The translations under genes and the position numbers were made by a program. From positions 1 to 64,000 of the forward strand of contig CACODG010000002.1 of the NCBI GenBank assembly GCA_902625945.1: a stretch of DNA of 64,000 nucleotides. Direction: 5' to 3'. Position 1 is the stretch's first letter. The number at the start of each line of letters is the position of its first letter. Of this stretch, positions 22,144 to 23,206 are shown piece by piece. This DNA comes from an uncultured Pelagibacteraceae bacterium (lineage in GTDB: Bacteria > Pseudomonadota > Alphaproteobacteria > Pelagibacterales > Pelagibacteraceae). The notes beneath the pieces are model-generated. The model was not told the origin of the DNA and did not search any database. It saw only the letters and a list, made by a program, of their open reading frames with translations.

Positions 22144-22347
22144 TTATTTTTTCTTAATATTAATAGCTTGAAGTTTATCTTTTTCCTCTTTTATGTCGTA
22201 AACTATTAATTGATCTTCCTTTAAGACACGTAATTTAGACTCTTCTAAAGCAGACACATGCAGAAAAATATCTTTTTTAGTTTCATTGTCAGTTATAAAC
22301 CCGTATCCTTTTTTCGCATTAAACCATTTTACTTTACCAGATGGCAT
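22144..22347 (-). CDS. Cold-shock domain protein (start moved to internal ATG with SD)
   Basis: MPSGKVKWFNAKKGYGFITDNETKKDIFLHVSAL; agagga SD just upstream; track start is 22362. Confidence 0.93.
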   Translation of the reverse strand: MPSGKVKWFNAKKGYGFITDNETKKDIFLHVSALEESKLRVLKEDQLIVYDIKEEKDKLQAINIKKK

Positions 22348-22375: not shown

Positions 22376-22570
22376 TTAGTATCTATTTTTTAATTTTTGG
22401 AGTTTTTTTATTCTTTTTAGATTTTCCGTTTGAACTCTTTTTTTTCTTTCAGAAGGCTTTTCGTAAGTACTTTTCATCTTCATTACTTTAAAAAATCCCT
22501 CTTTTTGAAGTTTCCTTTTAAGAACTCTAATTGCTTGCTCTACGTTATTATCTTTGACGTCTATTTTAAT
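22376..22570 (-). CDS. rpsU: 30S ribosomal protein S21 with apparent ATT start (not in the ORF track)
   Basis: Translated by hand: (M)KIDVKDNNVEQAIRVLKRKLQKEGFFKVMKMKSTYEKPSERKKRVQTENLKRIKKLQKLKNRY*; GGAGG 5 nt upstream of ATT; in-frame TAA four codons further upstream. Confidence 0.88.
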   Translation of the reverse strand: MKIDVKDNNVEQAIRVLKRKLQKEGFFKVMKMKSTYEKPSERKKRVQTENLKRIKKLQKLKNRY

Positions 22571-22621
22571 AAAAGCCTCCAGTTAAATTTAATGTTTGTT
22601 ATCATTTGAAAGTTTATTTGT

Positions 22622-23206
22622 CTAGAGAGAAGCTTCCTGAGCCTTCTTTTCCTCTCTTATTTTAGCTTTTTTCTCCCTTTCAACTCTTCTTTTAGCTTTA
22701 TCTAAACTTTTTTGAAAAGCTTCTTGGGTACATAATGCTAATATTACAGGATCCCTTGGTTTTAAGTTGGAAAAATTCCAATAACTTCTTTTTCTAATTA
22801 ATGAAACTGTTCCTTTTGTGCTACCAACAAGTTTTGAAATTTGGCCATCAGTTAAATCTGAAGCATTTTTACATAACCATAAAATTGCATCTGGACGATC
22901 TTGTCTTTTCGAAAGAGGAGTATATTTTGGTTTTTTTCTTTCTTTAACATCAATTTCATCAATTTTTTTTAATAAACTGAGTTTTTTTGTTGTGTCTTTA
23001 GAGCACTTTTCTATTTCCTCTCTAGATAGTTGACCTGCCAAGATTGGATTATAAGCTTTAATTCCTTTAGCCACATCTCCGTCAGCTATTCCTTTAATTT
23101 CTAATTCGTGTAAATTACAAAATTCAGCAATTTGTTTAAAGGTCAAAGTAGTGTTTTCAACTAACCAAACAGCTGTTGCTTTTGGCATAAATGGGGTTTC
23201 AGTCAT
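22622..23206 (-). CDS. trcR: DUF1013 family protein (cell cycle regulator TrcR homologue)
   Basis: MPKATAVWLVENTTLTFKQIAEFCNLHELEIKGIADGDVAKGIKAYNPI...RPDAILWLCKNASDLTDGQISKLVGSTKGTV. Confidence 0.85.
   Translation of the reverse strand: MTETPFMPKATAVWLVENTTLTFKQIAEFCNLHELEIKGIADGDVAKGIKAYNPILAGQLSREEIEKCSKDTTKKLSLLKKIDEIDVKERKKPKYTPLSKRQDRPDAILWLCKNASDLTDGQISKLVGSTKGTVSLIRKRSYWNFSNLKPRDPVILALCTQEAFQKSLDKAKRRVEREKKAKIREEKKAQEASL

Follow-up and report, generated by a model that had tools for sequence, protein, structure and literature searches.

Start codons of the AUU, AUC and AUA type pair imperfectly with the initiator tRNA and are rejected by initiation factor 3 (IF3), and infC exploits this rejection for autoregulation; GTG starts are hardly rejected by IF3. 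Together with the Streptomyces gene sigR, whose GTC start is IF3-repressed, infC is a precedent for control by IF3 at a non-canonical start (PMC5472188). In sigR, as in E. coli pcnB (AUU), a non-canonical start limits the level of a key protein. The S. aureus genes cvfC1 (AUU) and ccpN (AUA) have weak starts that are offset by strong Shine-Dalgarno (SD) sequences and conserved between species, and in reporters such AUU or AUA starts with extended SDs gave lower initiation and lowered output (PMC13009471). More broadly, suboptimal starts tend to come with stronger SDs, a statement that in Belinky et al. concerns AUG, GUG and UUG (PMC5622118). How rpsU, the gene for ribosomal protein S21 (bS21), is regulated in E. 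coli is unknown according to a recent review (PMC10931766). The gene is autoregulated in Flavobacterium johnsoniae, where its unusually strong SD is read by ribosomes lacking bS21, a protein located at the 3' end of the 16S rRNA, and where the leader, counted from the predicted start of transcription, has 25 nt (PMC9976891).

The rpsU gene of the Pelagibacteraceae (SAR11) can be set beside each of these systems. Like infC, it is a gene of the translation machinery with a conserved isoleucine codon as its start and a good SD, but its product is a 30S protein and not IF3, so that an IF3 loop would be indirect. It is the same gene as in F. johnsoniae, again with a short leader and an unusual initiation region that contains a strong SD; that species, however, relies on an extended SD against a background of sequestered anti-SD (PMC9976891), whereas the SAR11 gene has a non-AUG start and an SD of the GGAGG type. 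The weak start offset by a strong SD and conserved between species recalls cvfC1 and ccpN, although these are other genes from another phylum and neither encodes a ribosomal protein. The cases of sigR and pcnB concern single genes, whereas rpsU avoids AUG in most of the alphaproteobacterial families sampled. The compensation between start and SD described by Belinky et al. for their three codons has its likeness here too, but the trade-off in rpsU sets AUU with an SD against AUG without one, within one ribosomal gene (PMC5622118). A non-canonical start combined with a strong SD is known; its retention throughout a family, together with avoidance of AUG across a class in a ribosomal protein gene, was not found in the open-access literature. 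Nor did we find in the open-access PMC literature an earlier report of an alphaproteobacterial rpsU with an AUU or other non-canonical start, which is not proof of novelty.

The rpsU locus and its start codon

The window, a 64,000-nt stretch of DNA from an uncultured member of the Pelagibacteraceae, carries on its minus strand a coding sequence at 22376–22570 (64 aa, (f)MKIDVKDNNVEQAIRVLKRKLQKEGFFKVMKMKSTYEKPSERKKRVQTENLKRIKKLQKLKNRY; the coordinates include the stop codon at 22378–22376). Its translation matches the Pfam family Ribosomal_S21 over residues 3–54 (E = 2.7e-14; 53.1 bits, above the curated cut-off of 27 bits), which bears out the identification as rpsU in the first-pass annotation. 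This is the single S21 detected in the 786-kb assembly; across the family, rpsU was detected in 211 of 247 genomes. On its 5' side lies a TrcR family gene, a cell-cycle regulator (22622–23206, minus strand; Pfam TrcR, E = 9e-56), and on its 3' side a cspA-like cold-shock protein gene (22144–22347, minus strand; Pfam CSD, E = 3e-22). The cold-shock protein gene and rpsU adjoin on the same strand in 110 of 110 loci having both, an arrangement that suggests a common transcript. Among the other assemblies, rpsU is frame-broken in two (G194, loci L133/L137; G114, loci L134/L136), and one with 8% estimated contamination (G010, loci L128 and L138) has two additional, divergent S21 genes.

On the minus strand, leader and N-terminus read TAA CTG GAG GCT TTT ATT AAA ATA GAC GTC AAA GAT AAT AAC GTA. 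An in-frame TAA lies five codons 5' of the ATT (22568–22570), with four sense codons (CTG, GAG, GCT and TTT) between them, and the N-terminus has no ATG, GTG or TTG, so that the frame leaves CTG and ATT alone as candidate starts; the SD, GGAGG (22576–22580, minus strand), stands 5 nt ahead of the ATT. In all of this the sequence agrees with the first-pass annotation, which had gone on to claim that rpsU starts at AUU and had proposed an alignment of the region across SAR11. The comparative support for that claim is strong: among the 397 Pelagibacteraceae genomes scanned, codon 1 is ATT, ATC or ATA in 319 and ATG in 7, and one genome has ACG. The annotation had reckoned with ATG in relatives as evidence against its reading; the outcome was the opposite, since the seven ATG genomes, all of one genus, have their ATG at exactly the codon equivalent to the ATT and thereby mark the same position. 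Most of the unmatched genomes that were re-examined are without any rpsU in the assembly.

The same picture holds in smaller sets. Codon 1 is ATT in 105, ATA in 3, ATC in 2 and ATG in none of 110 loci of the window's genus and its near relatives (30 and 80 from two collections with partial overlap). When duplicates were removed and other genera of the family added, the resulting 145 unique leaders had ATT in 132, ATG in 7, ATA in 3, ATC in 2 and ACG in 1. The conserved N-terminal frame is (M)KI[DE]VK with AUU as codon 1, and nearly all leaders from the genus of the window have the frame closed 5' and lack a canonical start. The motif itself, GGAGG-N4-9-ATT, occurs 15 times in the window against 9.9 expected, near chance, and it is therefore homology and conservation that bear the argument. 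An error of assembly or a peculiarity of one strain was ruled out, as ATT is seen in many independent single-cell and metagenome assemblies.

It is highly improbable that translation begins elsewhere, be it at the in-frame CTG found at codon −4 in the window, at a TTG that overlaps the rpsU SD in genus g4 and a few others, or by a −1 frameshift from an overlapping open reading frame of the window (ATG ATA ... TTA AAA TAG, 14 sense codons, with its TAG end at the rpsU start), because the CTG is unconserved, many relatives having CAG, CCG or CGG there, the TTG lacks a separate SD, the frame of the overlapping reading frame relative to rpsU varies among relatives with leader length, and the AUU codon itself is ATG in seven relatives. 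With the frame closed, an ATH codon conserved across the family genomes, ATG at the same codon in those seven and the CTG variable, we conclude that AUU is almost certainly the genuine start of rpsU in SAR11.

Upstream of the gene, 138 of 146 loci have the arrangement TRGACA-17 bp-TGNTA, 136 of them with the 17-bp spacer, and the −10 hexamer precedes the start codon by 18 to 31 nt (mode 25). The window has an exact copy, which is its sole match even when one mismatch is allowed. The predicted −35 element, TAGACA (22619–22624, minus strand), overlaps the stop codon of the trcR-like gene, and the predicted extended −10 element, TGATAACAA (22596–22604, minus strand), would place the transcription start about 7 nt further 3'. 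If this promoter-like element is a promoter, the untranslated leader of rpsU would be about 20 nt long, and there would therefore be little room in it for a folded operator. Single-sequence predictions of folds in the rpsU leader were weak and none was convincing; with so short a predicted leader, a structured-leader operator seems unlikely.

Evidence for selection on the start codon and its Shine-Dalgarno sequence

The neighbours of rpsU at these loci start with ATG almost without exception (L31, 114 of 115; cspA, 81 of 81; trcR, 118 of 118; 313 of 314 in total), and the single deviation, an AAA in L31, probably reflects an offset in the alignment. Within rpsU, the third base of the start is held in a way that another isoleucine codon of the gene is not: the ratio of ATT to ATA is 132:3 at codon 1 and 3:137 at codon 3, a contrast whose p-value is not to be taken literally because the sequences are related. 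The SD, with the core GGAGG(T) in SAR11, is exact in 135 of 138 non-ATG leaders versus 0 of 7 ATG leaders in the set of 145, and several relatives without the exact motif have GGGGG in place of GGAGG. In a tree of the flanking gene, the ATG genomes fall into two clades, and the genome with the ACG start, whose SD is intact (G180, loci L418/L423), is nested beside one of them. The trade-off between SD and ATG would thus represent one to three evolutionary events.

Because the neighbouring genes keep ATG, the T of codon 1 is held and the SD is lost where ATG is gained, we conclude that the AUU of rpsU is almost certainly under selection, with the strong SD compensating for it. The two combinations, a strong SD before AUU and no SD before AUG, would then be, we infer, two routes to a similar initiation rate.

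rpsU starts across the Alphaproteobacteria

Avoidance of AUG extends beyond the family. In a sister family of the same order (f2), the start region of rpsU reads AAGGAGGGCAGAACA-ATA-GTT-GAA; since a canonical codon is absent and only GTT, GTC or GTA comes next, ATA is the most probable start, with ATC in its place in one genome. We also sampled 104 alphaproteobacterial genomes, one per family other than the window's, with starts assigned by rule, and obtained GTG in 47, ATG in 21, TTG in 13, ATC in 9, ATA in 7, CTG in 4, ATT in 2 and ACG in 1. About 20 of the non-canonical calls remain once L282, which is doubtful, and L288 and L343, in which a canonical codon lies two positions 5', are set aside. 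In at least seven (L228, L286, L313, L331, L335, L337, L339), ATG, GTG and TTG are absent from the in-frame stop to the conserved N-terminus. Apparent ATA, ATC or ATT starts of rpsU occur in unrelated families of the class (L226, L286, L313, L335, L337, L339 and others). As a control, rpsO starts with ATG in 27 of 29 of the same genomes, which were picked to include the cases of non-canonical rpsU (Fisher p = 5e-13 versus rpsU). Elsewhere in the phylum, rpsU starts at ATG in E. coli, and so do the sampled S21 genes of the E. coli type, apart from one with TTG; another S21 group outside the Alphaproteobacteria starts at GTG, and the three additional rpsU copies inspected on alphaproteobacterial plasmids all have ATG. 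The viral copies found, two relatives in IMG/VR and a few records of phages, are too few to conclude from; by annotation, S21 starts at ATG in pelagiphage HTVC008M and at TTG in Mosig.

In the class sample, SD strength did not differ between rpsU genes with ATG and those with non-canonical starts (p = 0.43), and the medians of the SD duplex energies were approximately −7 to −10 kcal/mol. For the 16S rRNA 3' end in the window's own assembly, the pattern used gave no match. The tendency across the class is away from AUG, mostly to GTG, and not specifically towards codons that IF3 rejects.

What a weak start on rpsU may achieve

We consider it probable that in SAR11 selection keeps the AUU as a means of throttling the synthesis of S21, on a short leader with a strong SD. 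The GGAGG would load 30S subunits efficiently onto an rpsU mRNA with a leader of about 20 nt, and the mismatch between AUU and the initiator tRNA, proofread by IF3 as established knowledge of such codons would have it, would cause most initiation attempts to fail. S21 output would in this way be set low and made sensitive to the stringency of the 30S pool (the IF3:30S ratio), with 30S subunits lacking S21 possibly contributing to the sensitivity; a homeostatic feedback on S21 through this sensitivity is hypothetical. Several observations temper the proposal. About half of the alphaproteobacterial rpsU genes have GTG, so IF3 control cannot be the common reason for avoiding AUG; SD strength at class level shows no significant difference between ATG and non-canonical starts; and the trade-off within SAR11, confined to one subgroup and few events, fits plain rate tuning. 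Indeed, for the subgroup that is back at AUG with its SD lost, tuning of the initiation rate would fit as well as feedback.

Alternatively, one could envision autogenous control like that of Flavobacterium, in which 30S subunits lacking S21 would initiate better on an rpsU with a strong SD and a weak start, and a shortage of S21 would raise its synthesis. The pairing of a conserved SD with a poor codon in SAR11 is what such control would use, and avoidance of AUG throughout a class in one ribosomal protein gene suggests a logic specific to S21 over drift. We nevertheless regard this as a minority possibility, as the Flavobacterium mechanism requires SDs below −13 kcal/mol and a sequestered anti-SD, whereas the medians in our class sample, obtained with another scoring, are about −7 to −10 kcal/mol. 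The existence of an SD-less ATG subgroup within SAR11, which does without such control, counts against feedback being essential.

A feedback of the kind known from infC, in which AUU would make S21 synthesis track the IF3:30S ratio and nothing else, is of similarly limited likelihood. Sensitivity to IF3 is classically a property of non-canonical starts (PMC5472188), and in the sister family infC and rpsU both have ATA or ATC behind an SD: infC there lacks ATG, GTG and TTG at its N-terminus and apparently starts at ATA (ATC in L257), a few bases past a GGAG SD, which is the classical IF3 arrangement (loci L248, L264, L242–L247, L249, L252, L254, L257, L263, L266 and L239). In the window's own genus, however, infC has GTG immediately after the preceding stop (in the loci examined, all from other genomes of the genus), and the classical IF3 loop of the sister family's infC is therefore not conserved here; most alphaproteobacterial rpsU genes, moreover, have GTG or TTG. 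Of the interpretation in the first-pass annotation, the AUU start of rpsU thus stands, while the IF3 control modelled on infC is only plausible.

A broader version would make rpsU a start-codon homeostat across the Alphaproteobacteria: the stringency with which start codons are selected would gate S21 synthesis, subunits short of S21 (or of IF3) would favour rpsU, and the isoleucine codons of SAR11 would be its extreme form. We hold this only tentatively; if true, it would be autoregulation of a ribosomal protein through the start codon and not through mRNA structure.

Drift, finally, would have a non-AUG start persist because little S21 is needed, its weakness being itself unselected. The diversity of start codon types across the class would agree with this, but AUU is kept in more than 300 genomes of the family while the adjacent genes stay ATG, AUU is favoured over AUA at codon 1 only, and the gain of AUG goes with loss of the SD; we thus think drift improbable.

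The start codon of rpsU has practical consequences as well. Gene finders limited to ATG, GTG and TTG miss or mis-start rpsU in many genomes, and likely do so also in unrelated alphaproteobacterial families, and the regulation of rpsU outside the Bacteroidota becomes testable by exchanging a single codon in alphaproteobacteria that are amenable to genetics. Non-canonical starts are regarded as rare and have been proven for only a few genes, and SAR11 rpsU keeps one throughout the Pelagibacteraceae, which are among the most abundant bacterial families of the ocean. The level of S21 in the Alphaproteobacteria appears to be deliberately held down, and the avoidance of AUG suggests that these cells either hold down or self-adjust the amount of S21 that they make.
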